From: Bacteroidota bacterium
Lineage (GTDB): Bacteria; Bacteroidota; Bacteroidia; UBA7662; JAIXUI01
Assembly: GCA_027484125.1 (NCBI GenBank)
Contig: JAIXUI010000075.1
Coordinates: 1 to 56,688, forward strand
DNA length: 56,688 bases
Reading direction: 5' to 3'
The position numbers and the translations under genes are program-made. Positions 5,365 to 40,957 of the stretch are shown here, piece by piece. Each line of letters opens with the position of its first letter. Positions within the stretch are counted from its first letter, which is position 1. A model generated the notes under the pieces. That model ran no database searches, was not told the origin of the DNA, and saw nothing but the letters and a program-made list of their open reading frames with translations.

Positions 5365-7368
5365 ATGAAAAAAATCTACGCTCTTCTAAGTGCCATGCTG
5401 TTTACAGCAGCCGTGGCCAGTGCTCAGTATTATGTGATTCCACATACATACGGGCCAGGCAACCCTGGTGGCCTCAATAACGACCCTGAATTCCCCATCG
5501 GTGGTGGTGCAGCTACTGGTTGGACGACTATTCTGCCTGGAAGCCAGATTGCTCCTGCATTGTCTCCGGCTACTGCTATTCCATTTGCCTTTCAATTCAA
5601 TGGACAAGCAGTTACCCATTACAAAGCTGGTTCTATTGGTTTGGTGACTTTTGATACTTCAGCACTCGCTTCTACTTTAACAATTGCAGCAGCTCCCCTT
5701 CCGAATGCGGCCATTCCTAATAATTCAGTGGTACTTTGGGGGTTACAAGGCACAGGGTCTAATGACCTGATCATTACCAAAACTTTTGGTACCGCTCCCA
5801 ACCGCCAACACTGGATTTCTTACAGTTCTTATGCTCCTGCTCCTCCAGCCGGAAGTACTTGCTGGAACTACATCTCCGTTGTGTTGGAAGAAACCTCTAA
5901 CAAAATCTACATTGTAGATCAACGTAACAATCCAAGTTGTACGCCTAGCTTCGTGCATGGGATTCAAATCAATGCCACTACTGCTATTGCTTTGCCCACC
6001 AATCCTACTCCAGCTATCAACTCTTCAGATGCATTGCCCGCTGGAAACAACTACTTTGAATTCATCTATGGAACTCAAGCGCCTGTTGCTGCAAGAATCG
6101 CTTCCATTACCACTCCACGTACCGGTTATCTCAACGATCCTGTAACCATTGCAGGTGGATTGTTTAATGCTGGTTCTCAGGCGATTACTTCTTGTAATCT
6201 TAACTATACCATCAACAATGGCGCAACTCAAACCGTTGCACTTAGCGGATTGAATGTAGCTTCTGGTACTGTTTTCAACTATTCCAGCTCTACCCTCTGG
6301 ACACCTACTACTTCAGGTGCATTTACCCTTCGTGTTTGGTGCTCAGCTATCAACGGGGGGACAGTGAATTCAGACACGTCCAATGCCACTATTAATGTAC
6401 TACCTGCTGCCATGGGCAACCTATTGGTATTCGAACATTTCACTAACGCTTCTTGCGGTCCTTGTGCGGCTCAAAATCCTGCTTTTGTTGCATTATTGAA
6501 GTCAAATGCACTAAAAGCTACTTCAATTAAGTACCACGTTTCATGGCCAGGAGTTGATCCTATGTATTCTGCAAACACCGCAGATCCAACCGCGCGAGTA
6601 AATTATTATGGTGTAACCGGTGTGCCTGATGTTTTCTTAGGTAATGCTGCTGGTTTGGTTAGCGTTTCTCCTTCTCAAGTAACTCAGGCCCTTATCGATC
6701 AGAATGCTGTAGCAACAGCTCCTTTTGAATACAACATCAACACCAGTGTCACCGGAAACGTGTTAACCGTTAGCGGTAATGTGAATAATCCTGGAAACGT
6801 AACAGGAAATCTTGTGCTTCAGCTAGCGGTTGTGGAAGATCCTGTAAAGTATGCAACACCTCCCGGAACTAATGGTGAAACTGAGTTCCCTAGTACGCTT
6901 CGTAAATTATTGCCTAGTGCTACAGGTACTACACTCTCAGGAGCTTCTACTCCTTTCTCTTATACTTACACCATCCCAACCGGCCAGGTCAAAGAAAATC
7001 TCTTTGTTGTAGCATTTGTTCAAAACAATACCAACAAGCAGGTTTATAAAGGTGGAAAGATTAAAAATGGCTTTAGTCTGAATACGGTAACCTCTGTTGC
7101 CGAGCCGGTTGCTATAGTAAATAGCTTGAATGTTTATCCAAACCCTGCTCGTGGTGAGGCTCGCATCAGCTTCAACAGCAACCAAAACGGACAAGCTCGT
7201 TTGAGAATGTTCAACTTGAATGGCCAAGAAGTGATGAGCCGCATCATCAACCTCAATGAAGGTGAAAACAACCACCGTTTAGATTTAGATGGTCTTGCTA
7301 AAGGACTTTACTTGGTGGAGCTTTCAGGTGATAATGGACATTCAACTGTTCGTTTGAGCGTTGACTAA
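5365..7368 (+). CDS. Omp28-like thioredoxin-fold protein with T9SS sorting domain
   Basis: A 667-residue secreted protein. Order of parts: signal peptide (1-20, ending ASA), a large beta-rich N-terminal region rich in Ala/Thr/Asn (about 21-235), an Ig-like beta domain (about 240-347), and an Omp28-type thioredoxin fold beginning at VFEHFTNASCGPC with the redox motif C-G-P-C at 364-367. It ends in a type A T9SS C-terminal domain (about 590-667) with the hallmarks NVYPNPA, L-N-G-x-E-V and GLYLVEL. The protein is therefore expected to cross the outer membrane and be anchored or released at the surface. Its substrate is unknown; a disulfide or thiol role follows from CGPC. It is followed by a strong terminator and appears monocistronic. 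Confidence 0.85.
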   Translation: MKKIYALLSAMLFTAAVASAQYYVIPHTYGPGNPGGLNNDPEFPIGGGAATGWTTILPGSQIAPALSPATAIPFAFQFNGQAVTHYKAGSIGLVTFDTSALASTLTIAAAPLPNAAIPNNSVVLWGLQGTGSNDLIITKTFGTAPNRQHWISYSSYAPAPPAGSTCWNYISVVLEETSNKIYIVDQRNNPSCTPSFVHGIQINATTAIALPTNPTPAINSSDALPAGNNYFEFIYGTQAPVAARIASITTPRTGYLNDPVTIAGGLFNAGSQAITSCNLNYTINNGATQTVALSGLNVASGTVFNYSSSTLWTPTTSGAFTLRVWCSAINGGTVNSDTSNATINVLPAAMGNLLVFEHFTNASCGPCAAQNPAFVALLKSNALKATSIKYHVSWPGVDPMYSANTADPTARVNYYGVTGVPDVFLGNAAGLVSVSPSQVTQALIDQNAVATAPFEYNINTSVTGNVLTVSGNVNNPGNVTGNLVLQLAVVEDPVKYATPPGTNGETEFPSTLRKLLPSATGTTLSGASTPFSYTYTIPTGQVKENLFVVAFVQNNTNKQVYKGGKIKNGFSLNTVTSVAEPVAIVNSLNVYPNPARGEARISFNSNQNGQARLRMFNLNGQEVMSRIINLNEGENNHRLDLDGLAKGLYLVELSGDNGHSTVRLSVD

Positions 7369-9328: not shown

Positions 9329-11458
9329 ATGAACCGAAAACAGCTCGCCGGAACGGCCCGTCTGTTGCTGGAACATTTCAAGCTCGATGAGCGGGAGTTT
9401 CTGCTTAAAGAGCAGTTTCACCGCTTTAGGTCTGATGATGTATATAATGTTCCCGACTTTGTACAAGAACTATTTCATTTTTCTTCTGCTTTAGACGTCT
9501 CATTTCTTGAAGAAACTTTTCCCGAGGATAAGTTTTTGGTTGTTCTTCAGGACTTATCTCTCCCTCTTTTAGTTTTTATTAAAAAGCCGGGTGAGTCTAT
9601 TCCTTTGCTTTGCTTACCAGACCGTAAGGCCAAGCATGCTTATTGTTTGATAAACCCTGATGGCTCCCGTTCTATGTTTACCGTAGAACAACTTAAAACT
9701 TGGTCCAAAGATTTTTACAGGGAAGAAAAATCGGGAAATGTTTATGCGCTTAGCATTTATGAGTCCACCTCAATCTTAGGTGCAGCTTCGAAGGAAGAAC
9801 ACCATCCTACTCCTTGGCAACGTCTGGTAAAACTCATGCTTGCCGAACGAAATGAAATTGGATATATCTATTTGTATGCAGTTGTAACCGGCTTACTAAG
9901 TCTTTCTCTACCTCTTGGTATTCAGGCAATTGTAAGTTTTATTTCCGGTGGGGTTATCTTCAATTCCGTAACCTTGCTCATCACATTTGTGCTGCTTGGA
10001 GTTATCTTAACAGGGGCGTTGCAAGTGATGCAGCTTAACATGGTGGAATTGCTTCAGCGACGAATGTTTACCCGAATTTCCCTTGAATTTGCAGTAAAGA
10101 TTCCCCGTTTTAAATTCGGTTCAGTAGGGAAAGTATTTCTGCCTGAGGTTCTTAACCGTTTTTTCGATACTCCGGCATTGATGAAAGCCATGCCTAAATT
10201 ACTCATCGACTTAACTGCTAACGTAGTTACTGTGATGTTTGGCCTCATCTTACTCTCTTTTTATCACCCATTCTTTGTGTTCTATGGAATGTTGGTGATC
10301 GCTTTGCTTATTATTTCTTTCCGATTATTGGGCAAAAAAGGACTTGCTACTAGCATCAAGGAGTCCAAGAAAAAATATGAAATAGCTGGATGGTTGCAGG
10401 ATTTGTCTCGCAACTATATGACATTCAGGACGCTGCCCTCATTCAACATCGCGATGGACAAGACCGACCGCTTGTTGAACGACTATTTAAGTGCAAGAAA
10501 GAAACACTACGCCATTCTTGTCTCCCACTATGTGGCTCTTATCGTATTTAAAACTTTGATTCTTGGTGGTCTATTGATTATCGGAACTCAATTGGTCATC
10601 AATCGTGAAATTTCACTTGGTCAGTTTATTGCTTCAGAATTAGTTATTGTACTTATTCTGGGTGCTATTGAGAAGCTGGTTTCTACCATGGACGTCATTT
10701 ATGATGCACTCACCTCCATCGATAAAATAGGCCACGTTTCTGATATCCCGGTGGATGAACTTCCTGAAATGAATGGCGTTCAAATTCGCGATGTTCGATT
10801 GGAACTAAAGCAGTTAAGGACCTCCAATTTATCCCCCTTGTCGCTAACCTTAGAACCGGGTGAGAAAATTGGCGTACTAGGACTCTCAAAACTTCAGCGG
10901 CTTGAATTACTGAATACATTAGAAGGTGACATTCTCCCCAAAGGTGGTCACGTGATGTATGGCAATGTTAATTTGTTAGACGCTGATCGGTTATCGGTTA
11001 GAAACATCATTCACAAAGTAACCGATGCTCAATTGGTAGAAGGAACCCTAGAAGAGAACATAAGCTTAGGGCTCAATACCGTTTCTTATAAAAATATGTA
11101 CGATGCGGTTGTTGAGTCTGGGCTTGAACAGGTATTAGCTGGACTTCCATCCCGACTTGACACTGTTCTCGACCCAGGTAATGCTTTTTTCTCACCGGAA
11201 TTAAGAGCAAGAATTATATATGCTAGAATGCTCGCTATCGGGGCTCAACTTTGGCTTGTAGATGACTTTTTGGGTGATAATGACCTGAAAACAATGGCCG
11301 AATTGAGCGAAAAAATCTTTAAACAGCCTGTGAGCATGCTCTATTTCAGCAACAATCCCTTCATTCTTAGAAACTGCGATAGGATTTTAGTTTACAAAGA
11401 GGATGGTACAACAGCATGGACCAGTGGAAAGAACTGGACTAACCTCTTTAACTTATAA
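9329..11458 (+). CDS. ABC exporter-type protein with degenerate nucleotide-binding domain
   Basis: A 709-residue protein with the architecture of type I secretion ABC proteins: an N-terminal soluble domain (about 1-155), a six-helix transmembrane domain (about 176-455) and a C-terminal ABC domain (about 480-709). The ABC domain has lost the residues for ATP turnover. Walker A reads GLSKLQRLE (518-526), with Arg for the Lys and no GKS/T. The Q-loop Gln is Thr565. The signature LSGGQ is FSPEL (621-625). The Walker B Asp645 is kept but the catalytic Glu is Asp646. The H-loop His is Asn675. All landmarks keep normal spacing in one frame, so this is divergence and not a frameshift. The N-domain has no recognisable C39 cysteine motif. 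The gene begins a tight operon with an HlyD-like and a TolC-like gene, pointing to a trans-envelope exporter whose energy source is unclear. Confidence 0.87.
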   Translation: MNRKQLAGTARLLLEHFKLDEREFLLKEQFHRFRSDDVYNVPDFVQELFHFSSALDVSFLEETFPEDKFLVVLQDLSLPLLVFIKKPGESIPLLCLPDRKAKHAYCLINPDGSRSMFTVEQLKTWSKDFYREEKSGNVYALSIYESTSILGAASKEEHHPTPWQRLVKLMLAERNEIGYIYLYAVVTGLLSLSLPLGIQAIVSFISGGVIFNSVTLLITFVLLGVILTGALQVMQLNMVELLQRRMFTRISLEFAVKIPRFKFGSVGKVFLPEVLNRFFDTPALMKAMPKLLIDLTANVVTVMFGLILLSFYHPFFVFYGMLVIALLIISFRLLGKKGLATSIKESKKKYEIAGWLQDLSRNYMTFRTLPSFNIAMDKTDRLLNDYLSARKKHYAILVSHYVALIVFKTLILGGLLIIGTQLVINREISLGQFIASELVIVLILGAIEKLVSTMDVIYDALTSIDKIGHVSDIPVDELPEMNGVQIRDVRLELKQLRTSNLSPLSLTLEPGEKIGVLGLSKLQRLELLNTLEGDILPKGGHVMYGNVNLLDADRLSVRNIIHKVTDAQLVEGTLEENISLGLNTVSYKNMYDAVVESGLEQVLAGLPSRLDTVLDPGNAFFSPELRARIIYARMLAIGAQLWLVDDFLGDNDLKTMAELSEKIFKQPVSMLYFSNNPFILRNCDRILVYKEDGTTAWTSGKNWTNLFNL

Positions 11459-11460
11459 GT

Positions 11461-12852
11461 ATGGCACATCAGGAAAAAGATGAATTGAAAGGGCTCGATC
11501 TCGTTTCTCTTGAGATGGTGAGCGATAAGAAGGTAGGGCGAATGACTGCTCGCTGGATGCTGGGCATTATGCTTTTGCTCTTTATTTGCTTGTTTTTGCC
11601 TTGGCAACAAAATATTCGTGGGTATGGCGTTTTAACCGCTTACACTCCTCAAGATAGGCCGCAAACCATTGAAACTACCATTGCCGGCAGAATTGAGAAA
11701 TGGTACGTCAAGGAAGGGCTATACGTAAAAAAAGGTGATACGATTTTGCTGATTTCGGAAATTAAAGACGACTACTTTAACCCCCAGCTAATCTCAAGAC
11801 TTAAAGAAGAAATCGACGCTAAGGAGTCTTCTATCATCTCGCTAGAGGATAAGGTTGCGGCTCTTTCAAGACAAATTGAAGCCAATAAGCAATCCTTGAA
11901 TTTAAACATGGAGCAAGCGCGAAATAAGTTGAAAATTGCACGGAATAAACTAAGCATCGACTCTATTCAACTGGTGGCGGCTCGCGTGGATGCAAAAATT
12001 GCGGACACTCAGTTAAAACGTCAAGAAAACCTTTATAAGCAGGGGTTAAGATCATTAGCAGAATTGGAAACGAGGGTTTTAAAAAATCAGGAAGCAGCAG
12101 CCAAATTGATAGCTGCGGAAAATAAATACTTACTCTCTCGCAACGAGCTCATCAACGCCGAGATAGAAATTAATGCTAAGCAGGCCGAATACACGGATAA
12201 AATTTCAAAAGCTGAGTCTGACAGGAATACCGCACTCAAAGATAAATTCGAAGCTTCAGGTGATTTAGCCAAAAAACGCAACTACTTGTCTAACATGGAA
12301 ATACGACAAGGTTTTTATGTCATTCGTGCTCCTCAAGATGGATATGTGGTGAAGGCTCTGAAACAGGGTATCGGACAAACCATCAAAGAACGAGAGGCGG
12401 TAGCTACCATCATGCCAGCTCGCTCTCGACTAGCGGTAGAGCTTTATATCAAAGCCATGGATGTGCCTTTGTTAAAAGTTGGTCAGCACGTTCGAGTGCA
12501 ATTCGATGGATGGCCTGCTATTCAGTTTTCCGGTTGGCCCAATTTATCTGTTGGTACTTTTGGTGGCCAGGTAGCGGTGATTGACTACATCGAAAGTGAG
12601 AAATCAACCTACCGAGTGCTCGTAATTCCTGACTCAAAAGACGAAGCCTGGCCTTGGCAGTTGCGTGTTGGTACTGGTGCCTATGGGTGGGCCATGCTAA
12701 ACGAAGTGCCGATTTGGTATGAGCTCTGGCGTCAATTCAACGGCTTCCCGCCTGATATGATAGACCAGTTTAGCAAGATGTCCGGAAGTAAGCAAGGCTC
12801 TAAGGACAAAGGAGAAGAAGATAAACCAAAGGATAAAGACAAAGCTAAGTGA
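11461..12852 (+). CDS. HlyD-family periplasmic adaptor (membrane fusion protein)
   Basis: A 463-residue adaptor that would link the inner-membrane ABC protein to an outer-membrane channel. A cytoplasmic N-terminus (about 1-31) is followed by one transmembrane helix (about 32-48), the first half of a lipoyl domain (IAGRIEKWYVKEGLYVKKGDTIL), a long alpha-helical hairpin with coiled-coil character (about 110-285), the second lipoyl half (FYVIRAPQDGYVVKALKQGIGQTI) and a beta-barrel region. The C-terminus is a highly charged low-complexity tail of Lys, Asp, Glu, Gly and Ser. It begins two bases after the ABC gene stop and ends five bases before the TolC-like start. Confidence 0.92.
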   Translation: MAHQEKDELKGLDLVSLEMVSDKKVGRMTARWMLGIMLLLFICLFLPWQQNIRGYGVLTAYTPQDRPQTIETTIAGRIEKWYVKEGLYVKKGDTILLISEIKDDYFNPQLISRLKEEIDAKESSIISLEDKVAALSRQIEANKQSLNLNMEQARNKLKIARNKLSIDSIQLVAARVDAKIADTQLKRQENLYKQGLRSLAELETRVLKNQEAAAKLIAAENKYLLSRNELINAEIEINAKQAEYTDKISKAESDRNTALKDKFEASGDLAKKRNYLSNMEIRQGFYVIRAPQDGYVVKALKQGIGQTIKEREAVATIMPARSRLAVELYIKAMDVPLLKVGQHVRVQFDGWPAIQFSGWPNLSVGTFGGQVAVIDYIESEKSTYRVLVIPDSKDEAWPWQLRVGTGAYGWAMLNEVPIWYELWRQFNGFPPDMIDQFSKMSGSKQGSKDKGEEDKPKDKDKAK

Positions 12853-12857
12853 GCTTT

Positions 12858-14288
12858 ATGAAGCATAAACTGCTGCTTTTCTTCTTTCTGGCAGGGCTTA
12901 ATACAAATTTGATAGCTCAAACGAAACTGGCTGCTTCTGACAGTGAATTGCCACTTTCATTGTTTTATCGGTTGCTGTTAGAGTTGCATCCTGTGGTTAA
13001 GCAGGCCCAATTGATGCCGCAAGCTGCCAATGCTAATCTTCTTCAAGCACGAGGGGCCTTCGACCCTGTGCTTCAATTTGCCTACGACGAAAAAACCTTC
13101 GACAAGAAGAATTACTATACGGTTAAAGAAGGTTATCTTAAACTACCTACCACTTTAGGTTTAGATTTTAAGGCTGGTTTTGAGTCAGTTACTGGTGATC
13201 GTGTAAACCCGGAAACAGCTACTCCACTCTCAGGCCTCGCAGTCGCCGGTGTTTCTGTTCCATTAGGGCGGAATTTACTCATCGACGACCGAAGGGCGAC
13301 TTTGCGCCAGGCAAGATTGTTTCGGGAGCAAGCCAAGGCCGAACAAGACAAGATGGTGCTGAAGTTCCTTTTTCAAGCTACCAAGGATTATGCAGAATGG
13401 TTGTTTCGTCAGAACAGGGTTAACTTTCTTCGCGAAGGGTATCGGATGGCGGATGAACGCTATCGTGCTGTGAGAGAGCGGGTGCTTCAAGGCGACTTGG
13501 CGGGTATTGATACCACTGAAGCTGTAATTGCTTTGAAAACTCGCGCCATTAGCCTTGCTCAAGCCGAAACGGATCTTCTCAATGCCCAATTATTTATTGC
13601 CGCTTATCTGTGGGATGAAAATGGGCGACCACTCGAATTAAATCCCTCCGTTCGCCCGGTAGCCGACCGTTCTGCTTTAAGTGTTTTCGCTCCCGATTCT
13701 ATCCGCCAACAGCTCGAACGTGCCCGCTTCAGCCATCCTGAAGTTAGAAAGCTGCTCTCAAAAATTGAACAAATCAAGGTGGAACGTTCTTTGGCGCGTA
13801 ATAACCTGCTGCCAGCCATCCAGCTAAATCTTAATGCCATTCAAACTTGGCCAGCTAATCAGGAGTTGTTAAACACTACTTTTATTCAACAGAATTACAA
13901 GATTGGAGCGTCGTTTTATATGCCTCTTTTCCTTAGAAAGGAGCGTGGAAAACTCCGTATGGTAAATTTTAAGCTCCTCGATCAGCAATGGGAATTAGAT
14001 CTTACCCGAAGGCAAGTAGAGGTTGGCATCAAAGAAGCTGCAAACGACTATCAGTTAGTCATCAATAACCTTGAGCTGCAACGTCAACTGGTTTTAGATT
14101 ATCTCAGGCTTCGCGACGGAGAGCAAATTCGTTTTGATAATGGGGAAAGCAATTTCTTTATGGTCAATACCAGGGAGGTGCAAATGATAGAATCACAAGT
14201 GAAACTTGCTGAGATGGAGGCCAAACAACTCAAAGCTTCTGCTGGACTCTGGTTTGCTGCAGGTCAATTTGAAGCATTGAAAAATTAA
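12858..14288 (+). CDS. TolC-family outer-membrane efflux channel
   Basis: A 476-residue outer-membrane channel protein. Signal peptide MKHKLLLFFFLAGLNTNLIAQ (residues 1-21), then the TolC-like helical repeats with ALPVVKQA-type openings (HPVVKQAQLMPQAANANLLQARGAFDP begins the first repeat), long heptad helices at 165-230 and 395-465 and a central strand region (SFYMPLFLRKERGKL). I choose the ATG at 12858 over the GTG three codons upstream because only it starts directly with the signal peptide and it leaves a five-base gap after the adaptor gene. It completes a type I-like export operon. No substrate gene is adjacent, so the cargo is unknown. Confidence 0.9.
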   Translation: MKHKLLLFFFLAGLNTNLIAQTKLAASDSELPLSLFYRLLLELHPVVKQAQLMPQAANANLLQARGAFDPVLQFAYDEKTFDKKNYYTVKEGYLKLPTTLGLDFKAGFESVTGDRVNPETATPLSGLAVAGVSVPLGRNLLIDDRRATLRQARLFREQAKAEQDKMVLKFLFQATKDYAEWLFRQNRVNFLREGYRMADERYRAVRERVLQGDLAGIDTTEAVIALKTRAISLAQAETDLLNAQLFIAAYLWDENGRPLELNPSVRPVADRSALSVFAPDSIRQQLERARFSHPEVRKLLSKIEQIKVERSLARNNLLPAIQLNLNAIQTWPANQELLNTTFIQQNYKIGASFYMPLFLRKERGKLRMVNFKLLDQQWELDLTRRQVEVGIKEAANDYQLVINNLELQRQLVLDYLRLRDGEQIRFDNGESNFFMVNTREVQMIESQVKLAEMEAKQLKASAGLWFAAGQFEALKN

Positions 14289-14313
14289 CCCCCATTTGTT
14301 CGAATGGCAAGCC

Positions 14314-14321
14314 TAGCTTTG
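14314..14321 (+). promoter_or_regulatory. -7 promoter element upstream of ndh
   Basis: TAGCTTTG, a perfect TAnnTTTG, 19 bases before the ATG at 14341, in the short gap after the TolC-like gene. It suggests that ndh has its own promoter and is not merely read through from the exporter operon. Confidence 0.5.
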
Positions 14322-14340
14322 TACTGGGCTAAACTATTTT

Positions 14341-23070: not shown

Positions 23071-23254
23071 TTAAGAGAATCGAGGAAGCATGGAGATTAG
23101 AAATGAGGTAAAAATGTGTGTAAAAGGCCTACGACTATAAATAAATAATCAATTCTAAGTCAAAACATTAAAAAATATTATATAAATAAACTTTTGCATG
23201 CGTTATCAAATTGTTAAATAAATCTTAACTTGATGTACACTTAAATTTTTGCTG

Positions 23255-26200
23255 ATGAGAAGAAAACTACTCACTTCCCTGATGGGTCTATTAGCAGTTT
23301 TGTACAGCTTGATGGCTTCAGGGCAGTCCCGTATGATTAGCGGGACCGTGACAGATTCCCGTAACGGCGAGCCGCTCGCAGGCGTTACGGTATTCGTGAA
23401 AGGCACCCAAACAGCCTCGAACACTGATGGTAGCGGTAAATATCGAATACAGGTAAGTTCTGATAAACAGACGCTTGTATTTCGAATGATTGGTATGAAA
23501 ACGAAAGAGATTGCTGTGGCTGCCGGGCCTGAAATCAACTTGGCCATGGAAAGTGACGCATTAAACCTTAGCGAAACGGTGGTTACCGCGCTAGGCGTAG
23601 AAAGGGAGAAAAAAGCTTTAGGCTACTCAGCTCAGTCGGTTGGGGGCGAAGAACTTAGACGTTCAGGTGAAGTAAACATCGTTCAAAGCTTAGCAGGTAA
23701 AGCGGCAGGGGTTCAAATTGTAGGATCCAGCGGTACTCCAGGAGCTTCTTCTAAGATTCTCATTCGTGGTAACTCAACCTTTACAGGCGAAAACCAACCG
23801 CTTTTTGTTATCGATGGTGTTCCTATGGATAACTCTACCAGTAGCTCAGTGGCAGGCGATTATCCATTCAACCCAACATTAAACGGGGTAAATAATTCCA
23901 ACCGTGCGTTGGATATCAATCCGGATGATATTGAAGATATGACGGTATTGAAAGGTCCAGCTGCTGCTGCTCTTTATGGGGTACGTGCCGGAAACGGAGC
24001 AGTTGTAATTACTACCAAACGTGGCAAAGGTGGAAAAGGCAAGAACTATGAAGTCCAGATTTCTTCTTCGGTAGAACTGTCGGAGGTTAACAAACTTCCA
24101 GAATTGCAATCTAAGTATGCGCAAGGTAATAGCGGCGGCCGATTTGTTGGAGGTGTTTACCAAAATGGCACTTACTCTACCGCTAATCCCGGAGCAGATG
24201 GCGTTTGGAACACTGACGATGATGTGCTGGGTACCGCCAATAGCTGGGGGCCTGCCATCAGCAATGTGCCTGAATTGGGCGGGAAAAGCTATGATAACAT
24301 GGCTGATTTCTTTCAGACTGGATACACCTATAATAACAACGTGTCTGTTTCTGGTGGAAGTGACCGCGGTTCTTTTAGACTGTCTATAGGTAGAACAGAT
24401 CAAACCGGGGTAGTGCCGAATACGCAATTAAAACGTACCACTATCAGGCTAACGGCGGACCATCGCTTAAGCGATAAAGTTTCGGTATTTGGTACTGTCA
24501 ATTATACCAATAGCAATGGCATAAAAGCGCAAAATGGTTCGAACCTTTCTGGTGTAATGCTAAGTCTTACTCGTGCCCCGGCCAGTTTCAATCTTAAAGG
24601 AGATGGAGATAATGGTTGGCTATTTCCCAATGGGCAGCAACGCCAATATTTCGGCGTTTATGACAATCCTTATTGGACGGCTTTCAGAAATCCACATACC
24701 GATCAAGTAAATCGTATCCTCGGCAACATCGCCTTAAATTACAAACCTGCCAGTTACATGGATATTACCTACCGTTTGGGAACCGACGTTTATACCGATA
24801 ATAGAAAACAAGTGTTTGCTATTGGCTCCTGGGATCCTCCAACCCCAACTGGTGAAATTTGGAATAATACCAAGACGTACTCTGAAATCTATAGCGATTT
24901 GTTGATTACCCTTAAAAAGCAACTAAACCCAAGTTTGATGGGAACCCTAACACTTGGTAACAACCTGAACAATCGCCAGACTAGGGATGAATTTGCAAGA
25001 GGTCGTAATCTAAGCGTTCCTAATTTCTACAATATGACGAATGCCTCTGACCGCTTTGCTAGTGAGTCCGATCAGGTGATTCGCACAGCAGCATTGTTCT
25101 ATGATGCTCATCTTGACATCAAGAATTATTTGTACCTCGCAACTACCGGTCGTTTAGAGTATTCTTCCACCTTTGGTAGCAGTCAAAACAACTTTTTCTT
25201 TCCTTCGGTTAGTGCCTCTTTTGTATTTACTGAGTTTATCAAGGAAAATGATATTTTATCCTTTGGTAAGCTGAGAGCCGCGGTAGCACAATCCGGTATC
25301 AGCCCAAGTCCTTACACTTCCAGAACATATTTTCGTTCGCCATTATTTACAGATGGCTTTACTGACGGAATCAGTTTCCCATTTAATGGGCTCAATGGAT
25401 TTGGTTATACATCAAATGGTGTAATTGGTAACCCTAACTTACGTCCTGAAATTTTGACTGGTTATGACCTTGGTCTTGACTTGCGCTTCCTAAAAGGGCG
25501 TTTAAATTTAGACTTCACCTACTATTATCAGCAAACGGATGACATCATCGTTACTAGACCAGTAGCTGGTTCTACAGGATTTACGAATTATGTTCAGAAT
25601 GCCGGTTCTATGCGCAACCACGGAATTGAAATGGTCTTAACTGGTACTCCAATAAAGTCTAAAAACCTGAGCTGGGACATAACGGTAAACTTTAATGCCA
25701 ACCGTAACAAAGTGTTAGATTTAGGTGAAGGGCTCGAAGAAATTCAAATTGATGCCGCATTTGGAGACATCAACGCTTTTGCAATCAAAGATCAGCCCTA
25801 TGGGGTGTTGTACGGCACTCGTTGGTTGAGAAATCCGGCGAATGGCGCATTATTGATTAATCCAAATACTGGTTTGCCTTACTTGGATCCAATCAATGGT
25901 AACATTGGAAATCCTTATCCAGATTGGTTAATGGGTATCCGGAACACCGTTAATTACAAAAACTTTTCGCTTAGTTTCTTATTTGATATTCGCCAAGGCG
26001 GAGCAATTTGGAACGGCACCTATGCCCGTTTAAATAGAATTGGACGAACAGAAGCATCTGCTGATCGTGAACGCCAGTATGTAATTCCAGGAGAGGTTGC
26101 AACAGTTGATGCTAATGGAAACATCGTAAGCACAGGTCAACAAAACGGGAAGCTAATTAATGCGCTTGATTACTATGCACGTTTTGAAGGTGACAACGGC

Positions 26201-26467
26201 TCTGCTCGCGAGCAAAGCGTAGAAGATGGTTCTTGGGTAAGACTTCGTGACGTTGTATTCACTTACAGCTTGAAATTTAAGAATAATAGTACGCTTCGAG
26301 CTTTGGATTTCTCAATTACAGGACGAAATCTATTGCTGATTACCAATTACAGAGGAGTTGATCCTGAAACCAGCCTTACCGGTGCCGGCTCTAACATCGG
26401 TGGATTTGATTACTTCAACATGCCTGGAACTCGTTCTTACATTTTCAGCGTCAGAGCCACATTTTAA
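23255..26467 (+). CDS. SusC/RagA-family TonB-dependent outer-membrane transporter
   Basis: A 1070-residue outer-membrane importer. Order: signal peptide (about 1-23), a CarboxypepD-regulatory-like Ig domain (about 25-105; ISGTVTDSRNGEPLAGVTVFVKG), a plug domain with the family signature ALYGVRAGNGAVVITTKRGK at about 235-255, and a 22-strand barrel ending in an aromatic residue (SVRATF). It works with the SusD-like lipoprotein encoded 11 bases downstream, taking up oligomers or large ligands powered by TonB. The ATG at 23255 is chosen over the TTG two codons upstream. The upstream 190 bases are AT-rich; AATTTTTG three bases before the ATG is a one-mismatch -7 element. No anti-sigma/ECF pair, hybrid sensor or glycoside hydrolase adjoins, so the ligand is not predictable. 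Confidence 0.95.
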   Translation: MRRKLLTSLMGLLAVLYSLMASGQSRMISGTVTDSRNGEPLAGVTVFVKGTQTASNTDGSGKYRIQVSSDKQTLVFRMIGMKTKEIAVAAGPEINLAMESDALNLSETVVTALGVEREKKALGYSAQSVGGEELRRSGEVNIVQSLAGKAAGVQIVGSSGTPGASSKILIRGNSTFTGENQPLFVIDGVPMDNSTSSSVAGDYPFNPTLNGVNNSNRALDINPDDIEDMTVLKGPAAAALYGVRAGNGAVVITTKRGKGGKGKNYEVQISSSVELSEVNKLPELQSKYAQGNSGGRFVGGVYQNGTYSTANPGADGVWNTDDDVLGTANSWGPAISNVPELGGKSYDNMADFFQTGYTYNNNVSVSGGSDRGSFRLSIGRTDQTGVVPNTQLKRTTIRLTADHRLSDKVSVFGTVNYTNSNGIKAQNGSNLSGVMLSLTRAPASFNLKGDGDNGWLFPNGQQRQYFGVYDNPYWTAFRNPHTDQVNRILGNIALNYKPASYMDITYRLGTDVYTDNRKQVFAIGSWDPPTPTGEIWNNTKTYSEIYSDLLITLKKQLNPSLMGTLTLGNNLNNRQTRDEFARGRNLSVPNFYNMTNASDRFASESDQVIRTAALFYDAHLDIKNYLYLATTGRLEYSSTFGSSQNNFFFPSVSASFVFTEFIKENDILSFGKLRAAVAQSGISPSPYTSRTYFRSPLFTDGFTDGISFPFNGLNGFGYTSNGVIGNPNLRPEILTGYDLGLDLRFLKGRLNLDFTYYYQQTDDIIVTRPVAGSTGFTNYVQNAGSMRNHGIEMVLTGTPIKSKNLSWDITVNFNANRNKVLDLGEGLEEIQIDAAFGDINAFAIKDQPYGVLYGTRWLRNPANGALLINPNTGLPYLDPINGNIGNPYPDWLMGIRNTVNYKNFSLSFLFDIRQGGAIWNGTYARLNRIGRTEASADRERQYVIPGEVATVDANGNIVSTGQQNGKLINALDYYARFEGDNGSAREQSVEDGSWVRLRDVVFTYSLKFKNNSTLRALDFSITGRNLLLITNYRGVDPETSLTGAGSNIGGFDYFNMPGTRSYIFSVRATF

Positions 26468-26478
26468 CGACTAATCAC

Positions 26479-27864
26479 ATGAAAAGAATTCTCCTTTTAG
26501 GCCTTGTATCGGCCCTTTTTCTAAGTTCCTGCGATAAGTACATTGAGGGATTTGATAAATCGCCCAATCTTCCCGGAGAGGTGAGCAATGCTAACCTGCT
26601 TTTGGTTTCAGGCGTTGCCACTCAATCCAATTATACTGGCCACTTGGCACGTATGCAAGCATGTTTTATTCAGCAGTGTTCCGGAATTGCGTTTCAATAT
26701 GCCGATTTGGAAGCCTATGTGGTTACGGAAAACGACATGGATAACCTTTGGAACGGAATCTATGCCGATGGTGCTATCAATGCCCAAACCTTGATTAAAC
26801 AGGCAGGTGCCGGCAACCCTTGGTATGCTGGTATGGCCAAGGTGTTGAAAGCCATGAACTTGGCACTCGCCAGCGATATGTGGGGTAATGTTCCATTGCG
26901 TGAAGCCCTTCGCGGTATTGAAGGTCCAGCCTACTTCAACCCTGCTTATGATAATCAGGAGCAGATTTATAATGATTTACAGGCCTTGTTGAGTGAAGCC
27001 ATTGTTGATCTTAAGAAACCTGCTTCTGCTAACCTGTTAAGGCCTAATGCCAGCGATGATGTGTTTTTTGGTGGCGATGCCGCCAGTTGGGTGAAAGTTG
27101 CCTGGATGTTGAAAGCAAGGCTGGCCATTCATCTAACTAAACGAAATGGCAACAATGCGGCAACTCAGGCAAACGCGTTCCTAGATAGTGCAAATCTTTC
27201 CGGTAACGGAGATAATATGATAGCGCGTTGGGGTTCTCGTGGCAATGAATTGAATCCCTGGTACTCGTTTAACCTCACTCGTGGAGGATATTTAAAGATG
27301 GGTAAACCATTTGTAGATCGAATGCTAAGCACCAACGACCCTCGCTTGCCATTTTTTGCTACTACCGATGCCTCAGGAGGATATTCCGGTACAGAAGCGA
27401 ACAGTGGGGTGGATACCACTTCGGATGTTGGCAACTTTGTAGCTGGTGCTAGTGCTACTAATGCCTTAGTAACTTATGCAGAAATGATGTTCATAAAAGC
27501 AGAGGCTGAATTTCGATTGGGCAATGGTGCAGCTGCGGCTACTGCTTTTAATGCTGCTGTAAAAGCTTCAATTCTTGAAGTAACTGGAAGTAGCAATCCT
27601 ACATTTGAAGCTGCAAATGCAAATGAAACGGCTACAACCATCACTTTGGAGAAAATTTTAACCCAAAAGAATACCGCCTTGTTCTCTCAAATTGAAGCCT
27701 TCAACGACTGGAGGAGAACAGGAATCCCTGCTGTTACACCAGCTGCCGGTGCTGCTTTATCCGCTGTGCCTCGTAGGTTACCAACTCCACTTAATGAAAG
27801 AGTAAATAACCGAAATGCTTCGGTAGTTTCTGATTTGCTAAGTCGAGTTTGGTGGGATCAATGA
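26479..27864 (+). CDS. SusD/RagB-family surface lipoprotein (SusD-like_2 type)
   Basis: A 461-residue lipoprotein with lipobox LFLSSC (Cys at 17) directing it to the outer membrane, where it forms the lid of the SusC-like barrel. The family pattern is seen in the helical TPR-like region: MDNLWNGIYADGAINAQ, WYAGMAKVLKAMNLALASDMWGNVPLREAL and SWVKVAWMLKARLAIHLTKR, then VTYAEMMFIKAEAEFRLGN and the C-terminal FNDWRRTGIPAVTP followed by PRRLPTPLNE. The closely matching block DMWGNVPLREAL is typical of SusD-like_2 members. It is followed by a terminator, so the SusC/SusD pair forms a two-gene operon. Confidence 0.95.
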   Translation: MKRILLLGLVSALFLSSCDKYIEGFDKSPNLPGEVSNANLLLVSGVATQSNYTGHLARMQACFIQQCSGIAFQYADLEAYVVTENDMDNLWNGIYADGAINAQTLIKQAGAGNPWYAGMAKVLKAMNLALASDMWGNVPLREALRGIEGPAYFNPAYDNQEQIYNDLQALLSEAIVDLKKPASANLLRPNASDDVFFGGDAASWVKVAWMLKARLAIHLTKRNGNNAATQANAFLDSANLSGNGDNMIARWGSRGNELNPWYSFNLTRGGYLKMGKPFVDRMLSTNDPRLPFFATTDASGGYSGTEANSGVDTTSDVGNFVAGASATNALVTYAEMMFIKAEAEFRLGNGAAAATAFNAAVKASILEVTGSSNPTFEAANANETATTITLEKILTQKNTALFSQIEAFNDWRRTGIPAVTPAAGAALSAVPRRLPTPLNERVNNRNASVVSDLLSRVWWDQ

Positions 27865-27921: not shown

Positions 27922-29607
27922 ATGGTGGAGAATCAAGGTTTAGCTGCTTTTTATGATCAGAATGCGATATCTGCTTTAGCGCAGTCTTCGTTGGTGTCGA
28001 TGATTTTGCTAGATGAGGAAGGGATGATCCGCTTCCTCAACGAGCCTGCAAAATTTGCATTTCCCGACCTTAAATATGGACAATCTCTCTTTTCTTTTGT
28101 GCACGATGCGCATCATGGAAGACTTGATGCGTGTTTGAATAATAGGCTTGACTTTTCACCAAAGCTGGTTCAGCTTCACTTTAAAATGGTGAACCACGCC
28201 ATGCTTTGGGAAGTATTTCGAAGAAATAGTACCAGTGAGGTGGTTTTGTTAACTCAAGAAACTGGATTTGCAGACATACACAGAGAGCAGCTCGTTCGGC
28301 AACAACAAGAAATTTTTCAAGCATTAGAAGATGGTTTCTTTGAAATAGATGACTCTGGATTCATTACTTCTGTTAATCAAACTCTTATAAATTGGCTTCA
28401 AGGAAGTTATGCTGATCAGCCAAAACTCGAAGATTGGTTTAAGAAGGATGATAAAAACCTTGATTTCTACCAAAAACTTCAGGCCATTAAGCAGCCTTTT
28501 CTTTCTGATTCTGGTGTATGCTTTTGTTATCCATCAAGTCGTTGGTGTCGATTTGAATTGGTGTCGAGATTAGGATTTGTGATGGTTCGATTAACTGATA
28601 TTTCTGATGAAATCACCAAAGATGACGAATTGAAACTCGCCCAACGAAGAATGCTTGCGATTTTGGAAAGTACCGGTGATGCCAATTTGTTGATTGATAA
28701 TTCCGGTAAATTACTCTCGTTCAATGGAAAAGCTATTGAAGTAATTCAGAGTTGGCTTGGTATAATTCCTTTTGAGGGCTTGGATTTCCAATCCTGCTTA
28801 TCCAGGCAACAAACTTTGGACTTTGAAGCATTAATTCGAAAAGCACTTGAAGGTGAGTTTGTAAACTTTGAATTAAAAATCAATTCCTTATTGGGGCTAG
28901 AAAATTGGTATTCTGTTAGGATTTTTCCGGCTAAAGAGGAGGGAGGTGAAATTTTTGGTGCCTCTTTAAATCTGTCAGACCTAACCAAACATAAAGAGTT
29001 AGAGCAAATTTTAACTGAAACAGAGCGCAAGCTTATGGCTCTTTTTAGCGCAACAAATGAGTCATTTGTGCTTTTTGATCATTTAGGTAAGGTTAAGTTC
29101 TATAATAAACAACTTTTACAACTTCCCTTGCATGTGAAGTCATCGGGTAATGTTTCCATTGGTAGTACCCTGTTTGATTTGGGATTAAACTTTCCGGGAG
29201 ATTTGTTGGAGGAGTCTCTTAGCCAGACTTTAGAAGGATTAAGTAAGAAGCAAATATTTGAATTAGAAAATCATAGCCAAGAACCAAGTTGGTGGGCAGT
29301 TAATACCTTTCCGGCTTTAAATAATCAAGGTTCCTTGTTAGGCGCTGTGCTATCAATAGAAGAAGTTACAGAAGAGATTTTGAATAAATTGGAAATAATT
29401 GATCGCTACAATCAATTAAGAGAGTTAGCAAAAATTCATTCGCATGAGGTTCGGAAACCTTTAGCCAATGTGTTAGGGCTTATAGACATTTTATCAAATA
29501 CAAGCCAAGAGGAAATAGTGGATCAAGAGAAACTCAAGCATTTACTAAGTGGTCAAATATCAGAGTTGGATGTTCTCATTCAACAGCTAAATCAACGCAA
29601 TTTTTGA
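27922..29607 (+). CDS. Multi-PAS protein ending in a HisKA-like helix without ATPase domain
   Basis: A 561-residue cytoplasmic protein without signal peptide or membrane helices. Four PAS-like domains can be outlined at about 16-115, 128-230, 240-355 and 365-482, for example ILLDEEGMIRFLNEPA, NLLIDNSGKLLSFNGKA and FVLFDHLGKVKFYNKQ. The last 70 residues form a dimerisation/phosphotransfer helix pair with the box HSHEVRKPLANVLGL; H508 matches the phosphoacceptor His of HisKA domains. The protein stops right after the second helix and has no HATPase domain. It could be a phosphorelay or scaffold protein acted on by another kinase. It is coupled to a paralogous gene by a TGATG overlap. The start ATG lies eight bases after the SusC/SusD terminator. 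Confidence 0.85.
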   Translation: MVENQGLAAFYDQNAISALAQSSLVSMILLDEEGMIRFLNEPAKFAFPDLKYGQSLFSFVHDAHHGRLDACLNNRLDFSPKLVQLHFKMVNHAMLWEVFRRNSTSEVVLLTQETGFADIHREQLVRQQQEIFQALEDGFFEIDDSGFITSVNQTLINWLQGSYADQPKLEDWFKKDDKNLDFYQKLQAIKQPFLSDSGVCFCYPSSRWCRFELVSRLGFVMVRLTDISDEITKDDELKLAQRRMLAILESTGDANLLIDNSGKLLSFNGKAIEVIQSWLGIIPFEGLDFQSCLSRQQTLDFEALIRKALEGEFVNFELKINSLLGLENWYSVRIFPAKEEGGEIFGASLNLSDLTKHKELEQILTETERKLMALFSATNESFVLFDHLGKVKFYNKQLLQLPLHVKSSGNVSIGSTLFDLGLNFPGDLLEESLSQTLEGLSKKQIFELENHSQEPSWWAVNTFPALNNQGSLLGAVLSIEEVTEEILNKLEIIDRYNQLRELAKIHSHEVRKPLANVLGLIDILSNTSQEEIVDQEKLKHLLSGQISELDVLIQQLNQRNF

Positions 29608-31298
29608 TGAGAAGGTGGTTTGATTCTAAATTGTTTCCTTCGGTTTCAATATATCCGGATGGAAGATTAAAAATGGTAAATGAGCGATTCAGGGCCATGT
29701 TTCTGCCTAATTCTGATTCTTACCATGGAATTCCATTTTCCGGATTATTAAAAAGTAAGGAGGTTGATTTAATGATGCGCAGTCTCGTTGCTTTAAATCA
29801 AAGTCCGGGAACACAGATTTCGCTAATCTTCAGTATGTCAACCATGTCTTCGAAAATAGAGGTTATTGAATGGGAATTTTTATCTCATGCCCAATCAGAA
29901 GATCAAGTAGATGAAATTACCGCCATAGGCAGAATCAGAGAACCATTGATCCATTCGGCTCCCTATTCCAATTCATTGGTTTACCATCAACGTTATTTGG
30001 ATGCACTAGTTGATTTGTTTTTTATTGTTGATAGAAACTTCAGATTAATTAGTGTAAACAGAAAGTTTGAACGTTATTTTCAATTGAATAGAGTGAATTG
30101 GTTAGGAGTAAATTTGAATGAAAATCCTATCCCGGGAATGCACCATCAGCTTTTGAAATCAATTGACTTAGCTATTTTGTTGAATCAGCCTAATGAGTTG
30201 TTAATTTCTGATTTTGATGGAATGGCCATTGTTAAATATAAAGTGGCGATCGTAAACGATGGTGTTTTGGTGCTAGGTCGGGATGTAACACCCTGTTATG
30301 CTAATTCTGAGAAATTAAAACGTTCGAAACAGAAACTTGATGCCATTCTTAACTCTACCACCGACAGTAACTTGCTAATTTCCCCCGAAGGCTATGTGCT
30401 TAGTTTTAATAAAGTCTCAGAAATTGAAATGCGCACGGTCTTTAAGAAAGAGCTTAAAATTGGTAGCCATATAGAGTCATACCTTATTCCCAAGTTGATT
30501 GAAGATTTTCGAAAAACGTTTGAAAAGGTGCTTGAAGGTGAAATAGTGGTAAAGGAAGTACAGTTAAACCTTGGCAGCTATTCTGCTTGGTATGAAATCA
30601 AATATCAACCGGTATATGCAGAAAATGGAGAGTTAATTGGAGTCTCTTTCAACTCACGATATATAGATTCTTACAAACAACTCTTGGAACAGTTGAAAAA
30701 TCGGACAGAGATTTTAAACGCAGTTTTTAATAGCACACAATCTGCCTTGATCATTTTGAATTATCAAGGCGAAATCACTTATTTGAATCAGGTGGCCGAG
30801 TGGCTTTTGGTGTCACAATCAGGGTATCCTGTCAAAGAAGGAGATGCCTTGTTCGGCCTACTTCCTGCTCAGTATGGTCATGGTTGTAAACAAAAGTGGG
30901 AGCTTTCCTTGCGAGGGAACCATGCCTCATTAGAGATGGAGCTAGAGAGCCATCTTCATGGGACACAGTATTATCAAGTGCAATTTCACCCTGTTAAAGA
31001 TCAAGAAGGCAAGCAATTCGGCGTTTCAATGGTATTGATTAACCGCACTCATCAGCATCAACAACTCGAACGATTGGCCGCGCAAAACAGAACATTAGCC
31101 AAAATTACAGAGGTTTGTAGTGAAAGTTGGCCTATTCCAATCCGTGTAATTCGTGAGTTAGAAGAGCAGATTAGGCTAACGCCAGACTTAGCTCCTCGGC
31201 TTCTGCCTGCACTACTGAAACAAGCAAGAAAACTAGATCAAATGATTTATTCTGTAAATAAGATGATAGCTGAAACTTCTTTTCAGGACTTTAATTAA
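29607..31298 (+). CDS. Multi-PAS protein with degenerate HisKA-like C-terminus
   Basis: A 563-residue paralogue of the preceding protein with the same plan: four PAS-like domains (about 1-112, 125-230, 240-352, 365-482) and a C-terminal helix pair. The third PAS domains are the closest (AILNSTTDSNLLISPEGYV beside AILESTGDANLLIDNSGKL). In the C-terminal helix the sequence after LAKI is TEVCSESWPIPIRVI, so the phosphoacceptor His is missing, and there is no ATPase domain. It is therefore unlikely to be phosphorylated like a kinase and may sense or modulate as a partner of the first protein. The ATG at 29607 overlaps the upstream TGA (TGATG). No terminator is obvious before the next gene. Confidence 0.83.
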   Translation: MRRWFDSKLFPSVSIYPDGRLKMVNERFRAMFLPNSDSYHGIPFSGLLKSKEVDLMMRSLVALNQSPGTQISLIFSMSTMSSKIEVIEWEFLSHAQSEDQVDEITAIGRIREPLIHSAPYSNSLVYHQRYLDALVDLFFIVDRNFRLISVNRKFERYFQLNRVNWLGVNLNENPIPGMHHQLLKSIDLAILLNQPNELLISDFDGMAIVKYKVAIVNDGVLVLGRDVTPCYANSEKLKRSKQKLDAILNSTTDSNLLISPEGYVLSFNKVSEIEMRTVFKKELKIGSHIESYLIPKLIEDFRKTFEKVLEGEIVVKEVQLNLGSYSAWYEIKYQPVYAENGELIGVSFNSRYIDSYKQLLEQLKNRTEILNAVFNSTQSALIILNYQGEITYLNQVAEWLLVSQSGYPVKEGDALFGLLPAQYGHGCKQKWELSLRGNHASLEMELESHLHGTQYYQVQFHPVKDQEGKQFGVSMVLINRTHQHQQLERLAAQNRTLAKITEVCSESWPIPIRVIRELEEQIRLTPDLAPRLLPALLKQARKLDQMIYSVNKMIAETSFQDFN

Positions 31299-40861: not shown

Positions 40862-40914
40862 AACGACTTGTTAGAAAAAGAGAAGATTAAATTTTCCTTT
40901 TTTAACAAGTCGTT
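40862..40914. repeat. Long inverted repeat upstream of a T9SS cargo gene
   Basis: aacgacttgtta (40862-40873) and taacaagtcgtt (40903-40914) are perfect inverted repeats; with the adjoining G-T pair and A/T pairs the stem reaches 17 bp (40862-40878 with 40898-40914) around a 19-base AT-rich loop. No T tract follows the right arm, so a standard terminator for obgE is not evident. It lies 24 bases upstream of the -7 element of the next gene. Confidence 0.7.
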
Positions 40915-40924
40915 CTTGATTTTT

Positions 40925-40935
40925 GTAACTGTTAC
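40925..40935. promoter_or_regulatory. Palindrome GTAACtGTTAC in the promoter spacer
   Basis: An 11-base palindrome lying two bases upstream of the -7 element TACATTTG (40938-40945) of the T9SS cargo gene, where a repressor would block RNA polymerase. It is short and could be chance. Confidence 0.35.
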
Positions 40936-40937
40936 AC

Positions 40938-40945
40938 TACATTTG
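40938..40945 (+). promoter_or_regulatory. -7 promoter element of the T9SS cargo gene
   Basis: TACATTTG, a perfect TAnnTTTG, 12 bases before the ATG at 40958. TTTG at 40922-40925 is closer than the usual -33 distance. Because it lies within the open frame upstream, it supports the ATG at 40958. Confidence 0.5.
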
Positions 40946-40957
40946 GAAAAAATTAGT

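Follow-up and report, generated by a model that had tools for sequence, protein, structure and literature searches.

The described systems that most resemble the locus analysed here are the type I secretion systems (T1SSs; HlyB-HlyD-TolC, LssB, PrtD) and the PCAT/ComA exporters, with which it has in common the operon layout, the fold of the transmembrane domain (TMD), and the HlyD and TolC partners. The best sequence matches also lie in this group (TIGR03796, TIGR03375, and the ComA and PCAT1 structures), and the N-terminal domain of the protein under study stands where these systems carry a C39 or C39-like domain (CLD). What sets the family apart is that its nucleotide-binding domain (NBD) lacks the elements of hydrolysis or is absent, and that no consistent secreted-protein gene adjoins the operon. 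Degenerate NBD motifs within an exporter fold are also seen in the heterodimers TAP1/2 and TM287/288, but there one composite site is still competent and the partner is intact, and the operon described here encodes no such partner. EmrAB-TolC and FarAB-MtrE combine a HlyD-type adaptor and a TolC-type channel with an inner-membrane transporter that is not an ATPase, although that transporter is an MFS protein and does not have the ABC fold. These MFS-based tripartite pumps illustrate that HlyD-TolC can serve a non-ATPase (review PMC8277102). A further parallel is SbmA, reported to be a proton-driven protein that has an ABC-type TMD with a glutamate ladder and no NBD or coupling helices; descent of SbmA/BacA (SLiPT) from a full-length ABC transporter has been proposed (PMC13316013).

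The window, by which we mean the whole 56,688-nucleotide stretch of DNA analysed, contains an intact operon of three ORFs on one strand, with the following features:

9329..11458, + strand: ABC-exporter-fold protein with a pseudo-ATPase domain, 709 aa (ORF, Pfam ABC_membrane, relatives)
9329..9793, + strand: N-terminal domain of ~155 residues, unassigned, without a catalytic Cys (family profile without Pfam or PDB match; hhalign to C39)
9794..10768, + strand: six-helix type IV exporter TMD, residues 156-480, with E437 in TM6 and the K408/E448 pair (alignment, conservation)
10379..10444, + strand: residues 351-372, the region of coupling helix 2, which has eroded in part (it retains half of the 8 consensus residues)
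10766..11458, + strand: degenerate NBD, residues 480-709 (motif table; no frameshift)
11461..12852, + strand: HlyD-family periplasmic adaptor, 463 aa (Pfam HlyD_3; TIGR01843 type_I_hlyD, 3.8e-21)
12849..14288, + strand: TolC-family outer membrane channel, 479 aa from a GTG start (Pfam OEP, 4.6e-30)
14310..14330, + strand: terminator-like stem 3' of the operon (promoter/terminator scan), graded weak because the region has fewer such sites than shuffled sequence

A preliminary description of this DNA had recognised the T1SS-like three-gene layout, and both the ORFs and the Pfam matches (ABC_membrane, HlyD_3 and OEP) agree with it. Of the two intergenic gaps it gave, the 2-base gap before hlyD stands; the 5-base gap before the TolC gene applies only to an alternative in-frame ATG at 12858, since from the GTG the ORF overlaps hlyD by 4 bases. 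In the ABC-fold protein, the Pfam ABC_membrane match is above its cut-off (38.5 bits against 28) and the ABC_tran match is below (17.7 against 25). An NBD can nevertheless be recognised, since TIGR02857 (CydD) covers residues 476-686 at 7.6e-17. The protein falls far below every curated cut-off (100.6 bits against 853; 79.7 against 693 for TIGR03375; 55.5 against 725 for TIGR01846). The operon thus resembles a T1SS in layout and fails T1SS membership on a competent NBD and on every curated score. Nor does the protein have the N-terminal C39 peptidase with a catalytic Cys that a PCAT requires, and it is not an NBD-less TMD of the SbmA type, because it keeps its degenerate NBD. PADLOC gave no match, and a scan against viral contigs found nothing.

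Which elements of the ATPase are missing? Five exporters from the same genome or from neighbouring loci, all with every motif intact, served as controls. Against the GxxxxGK[ST] of the controls, the window protein has GLSKLQRL at Walker A; its Q-loop residue is T, its signature is FSPEL and its H-loop residue is N. Walker B reads LWLVDD. This motif retains its own Asp, and a second Asp stands in for Glu at the catalytic position, so the catalytic Glu is lost and Walker B itself is not. The alignment therefore bears out the earlier reading that Walker A, the Q-loop Gln, LSGGQ, the catalytic Glu and the H-loop His are all gone. The sequencing error that would have undone that reading was not found. 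No frameshift restores the motifs, because the two other reading frames at the three motif sites examined contain stops and no motif; the 709-codon frame is intact, and GC3 is even along it (0.39 in the N-terminal domain, 0.42 in the TMD, 0.41 in the NBD), which argues against a decayed frame. AlphaFold2 models from three-sequence alignments, limited to the window and its related loci, were too poor to use (mean pLDDT 47 for the full protein and 43 for the NBD).

The protein belongs to a large family. Strong relatives, with 29-44% identity, occur in a large share of the 295 genomes searched in the window's class, and the window TMD is 27-51% identical to those of its relatives. The family is common in the window's class and extends to other classes of the phylum, to Polyangiales and to Novosphingobium: 53 of 198 genomes in a phylum-wide sample have a relative at E <= 1e-30, as do 29 of 57 genomes in the order of a Polyangiaceae MAG. 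The class search supplied 107 distinct sequences, extracted with their context, two of them from named records. The order ABC-HlyD-TolC is kept in nearly all of ~105 loci, and the operon is conserved over three phyla. In three plasmid records the homologue is followed by HlyD and TolC genes: Walker A has been lost in those of Aureibacter tunicatorum (WP_309940528.1) and Novosphingobium aromaticivorans (WP_049759575.1), and retained in that of Riemerella anatipestifer (WP_004920602.1), whose signature reads LPYST. The 102-kb R. anatipestifer "plasmid" (NZ_CP081938.1) carries the housekeeping genes murB, rsmI and fabG and is possibly a mis-assembled piece of chromosome. We found no paper describing the family in the open-access literature searched, although a subscription paper could exist, and a term search covering part of a Chem Rev review of tripartite systems returned nothing on NBD-less T1SSs.

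Motif loss is graded across the 96 aligned relatives that have an NBD. LSGGQ is found in none of them, the Q-loop Gln in 3, the H-loop His in 7 and the catalytic Glu in 16. The Walker A pattern is present in 78 and the Walker A Lys in 88. The usual state in other classes of the phylum is to keep Walker A, the catalytic Glu and the H-loop without the signature or Q-loop; in one set of such relatives (L142-L155) the first three are mostly intact, and this combination may represent the first step of loss. Among the Polyangiales, many relatives lack Walker A and a few are near-canonical (L169 has GANGSGKS, LSAGQ, LLILDE and the H-loop H; L173, L174 and L184 are similar), which suggests that the latter preserve the ancestral state. 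From these motif states, the signature and Q-loop appear to have been lost first and family-wide, with Walker A lost later and repeatedly. Indeed, parsimony on the TMD tree requires at least 14 changes in Walker A state, and the loss in the window protein is not common to its nearest relatives in the tree. Polarity is inferred from that tree, for which the sole outgroup is one very distant exporter. The preliminary description had allowed that relatives with intact motifs would count against it. For Walker A this is what was found: most relatives keep it, so its loss is not conserved. For the signature the opposite holds, with none intact among the Bacteroidota relatives examined and a near-canonical form only in a few distant Polyangiales.

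Two clades have no NBD, as confirmed with Pfam. One consists of five TMD-only members (L036, L038, L039, L040, L131; support 99), whose proteins terminate immediately after TM6; four of the five have an 8-base overlap of hlyD with the stop, and in the other hlyD starts 40 bases on. In the second (L049, L050, L134, L135; support 100), a short linker leads from TM6 into the HlyD adaptor within a single frame of 750 residues, with the TolC gene directly next. To our knowledge, no characterised system has an exporter TMD fused in-frame to a HlyD adaptor without an NBD. A search of the TMD-only genomes with the sister clade's NBD found no detached family NBD, the best matches being ordinary full-length exporters with 24-30% identity. 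One other candidate TMD-only relative (L037) was removed because a contig end cuts its gene; a parsimony count of three changes in NBD state included it, and without it we count two. As read from these sequences, the NBD has been lost completely twice with the operon kept.

Coupling helix 2 docks the NBD in type IV exporters. The fraction of its consensus kept is 0.93 in Walker-A-positive members, 0.67 in Walker-A-less members, 0.50 in the window protein, 0.42 in the TMD-only clade and 0.06 in the fused clade, and the corresponding values for TM6 are 0.95, 0.91, 0.80, 0.94 and 0.88. Erosion of the helix, judged by alignment and with bounds taken from a low-confidence model and homology, thus seems to follow the order of NBD loss, while TM6 stays conserved. 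Within TM6, position 437 holds Glu in 145 of 147 aligned sequences and an acidic residue in 146; ComA and PCAT1 have Asn there in the alignment. E448 is conserved in Bacteroidota, and changes at K408 and at E448 tend to go together. The near-canonical Polyangiales relatives also have E437, and E448 is not conserved there. The origin of E437 therefore does not coincide with the loss of the NBD, and this residue is a candidate for ion coupling and not proof of it. As to gains of charged TM residues specific to the NBD-less clades, some changes (at 243, 398 and 402) were seen, without a clear pattern common to them.

Selection has continued to act on what remains of the NBD. In close Bacteroidota pairs with signature-less NBDs, dN/dS is mostly 0.03-0.08 for the NBD, with one pair at 0.17, and 0.006-0.04 for the TMD where synonymous sites are unsaturated; for one Polyangiales pair without Walker A the values are 0.20 (NBD) and 0.09 (TMD). 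These values are rough because many dS are near saturation, and they come from pairs of relatives and not from the window's own NBD. With that qualification, they point to purifying selection on degenerate NBDs.

The N-terminal domain remains unassigned, as the preliminary description had left it: a family profile has no Pfam or PDB match. Some 40 extracted relatives carry such a domain of 130-240 residues, very divergent, with a mean column identity of 23%. In position and length it corresponds to the C39 or C39-like domain in PCAT/HlyB, and hhalign to C39 domains from the same class aligned 105 columns (probability 15%, E 0.0017). The window domain has no C39 Pfam match and no catalytic Cys motif. 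A degenerate C39-like origin is possible and not shown; the alignment is only suggestive.

Gene neighbourhoods bear on substrate and energy. At 55 of the class loci, or about half, a TetR-type gene lies beside the first operon gene, with TetR_N confirmed in one member; in the window no such gene adjoins the operon. No conserved candidate gene for a secreted protein was found in the relatives' neighbourhoods. The adjacent regulator would fit a small hydrophobic or toxic substrate better than a dedicated secreted protein; this is an inference. The idea that a separate ATPase or NBD partner drives the complex gains no support from gene neighbourhood. The window has no partner half-transporter with an intact NBD beside the operon, and no intact ATPase is conserved there in relatives save a canonical ABC exporter (LSGGQ intact) directly upstream in four genomes of one genome family (L059, L060, L063, L064). 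As separate observations, several loci (L083, L087, L095) have, as assigned by eye, an SbtA-like transporter and in some cases a small P-II/SbtB-like protein close to the operon, and elsewhere the window encodes proteins that bear the C-terminal sorting domain of type IX secretion (Por_Secre_tail; 5365-7368 and 40868-43459), a SusC-like TonB-dependent receptor with a SusD-like lipoprotein (23249-27864), and a neighbouring pair of similar multi-PAS proteins (561 and 564 aa; 27922-31298).

How might such a machine work? Since the ATPase is eroded family-wide and was removed in two lineages, these machines probably run without ATP hydrolysis. We propose that the operon encodes a tripartite exporter with an ATP-driven ancestor, which does not hydrolyse ATP and for which an ion gradient is the likeliest driving force, a reading we consider evenly poised between right and wrong. 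The inner-membrane part would descend from a HlyB/PCAT-like ABC exporter that lost hydrolysis. Its TMD homodimer would retain alternating access and hand substrate to HlyD-TolC, with an ion gradient supplying the energy by way of charged residues in the membrane, for which E437 and K408/E448 are candidates. In members with Walker A the NBD may be a nucleotide-binding gate or sensor, and in the window protein it may be only a dimerisation or regulatory scaffold. The parts of this proposal are not equally secure. That a homodimer of the window protein would not hydrolyse ATP is very likely, as an inference for which there is no biochemical evidence. Export through HlyD-TolC, also inferred, is probable. 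An ion gradient as the drive is tentative, with the case for it falling a little short of the case against, and rests by analogy on SbmA and on MFS-based tripartite pumps. The likeness to SbmA has limits. Both have a type IV ABC-type TMD with charged membrane residues, and SbmA lacks the NBD and has lost the coupling helices; however, SbmA works as an importer, has an additional TM0 domain and lacks HlyD and TolC partners, whereas export is inferred for this family, in which degenerate-NBD intermediates survive and only two related clades lack the NBD. E437, and E448 in Bacteroidota, are conserved, and any correspondence to the glutamate ladder of SbmA, like homology to SLiPT, would be conjecture.

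The evidence admits other readings. The TMD-HlyD-TolC assembly could be a passive or nucleotide-gated conduit, a sensor or an envelope scaffold, and no active pump. The NBD is dispensable in two clades, and retention of Walker A with loss of the hydrolysis motifs fits binding-only gating; yet the type IV exporter TM core, the TM6 charges and the full HlyD-TolC path are conserved, and a TetR-type regulator beside many operons is typical of inducible efflux. We consider this reading unlikely, if worth keeping in mind. Power could also come in trans, from an intact ABC ATPase encoded elsewhere that forms a heterodimer with the protein or docks on its TMD. Many heterodimeric exporters are known in which one site is degenerate, and relatives from other classes, with Walker A, catalytic Glu and H-loop and no signature, show the pattern of one heterodimer partner. 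Generic ABC exporters are present in the genomes searched, any of which could act in this way, and four loci have the canonical exporter just upstream. Nearly all loci, however, have no conserved partner gene beside the operon, both composite sites would be broken in the window protein and many relatives even with an intact partner, and the docking helix is eroded in the TMD-only and fused members; trans power is accordingly rather doubtful in our estimation.

Walker A persists in most relatives, so these may still bind ATP, and some may hydrolyse it slowly, which counts against the proposal above. Taken further, the NBD could be a slow ATPase of an unconventional kind whose motifs have diverged, and the whole an ordinary T1SS or ABC efflux pump. 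The frequency of Walker A, the common acidic Walker B residues, the strong purifying selection on the NBD and the near-canonical Polyangiales members would all fit, but the Walker A Lys is gone from the window protein and several independent lineages, and two clades have no NBD at all, which makes this account improbable. As for isolated pseudogene decay or sequencing error in the window genome, only the failure of the nearest tree relatives to share the Walker A loss speaks for it. The intact frame with no motif in another, the even GC3, the family-wide signature loss and the normal conservation of the TMD leave it next to no room; it is refuted for the signature, Q-loop and H-loop and possible only for the Walker A step. 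The earlier suggestion of selection for a non-ATPase function, on the other hand, is strengthened: the signature and Q-loop are lost in nearly all relatives and the H-loop in most, and purifying selection on the NBD, its two complete losses and the retained operon lend further support.

What are the implications for tripartite export? An ABC-derived, ion-gradient-driven exporter working with HlyD and TolC would be a further energetic class of double-membrane system besides RND, MFS and ABC, which is possible and still somewhat doubtful. If true, the class would be widespread in Bacteroidota and in Polyangiales, and its living intermediates would record the stepwise, parallel loss of a motor. 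ABC exporters are defined by ATP hydrolysis, and this family gives the ATPase up stepwise and repeatedly with the rest of the machine kept. Annotation labels the family members "ABC transporter ATP-binding protein", and tallies of T1SSs or ABC pumps in Bacteroidota genomes therefore probably include systems that are not driven by ATP. Finally, the family offers a graded natural series, from a near-canonical NBD through loss of the signature, of Walker A and of the whole NBD to a TMD fused to its adaptor. This series bears on how a TMD functions without NBDs and on the role of residual NBDs, the question that SbmA raised.
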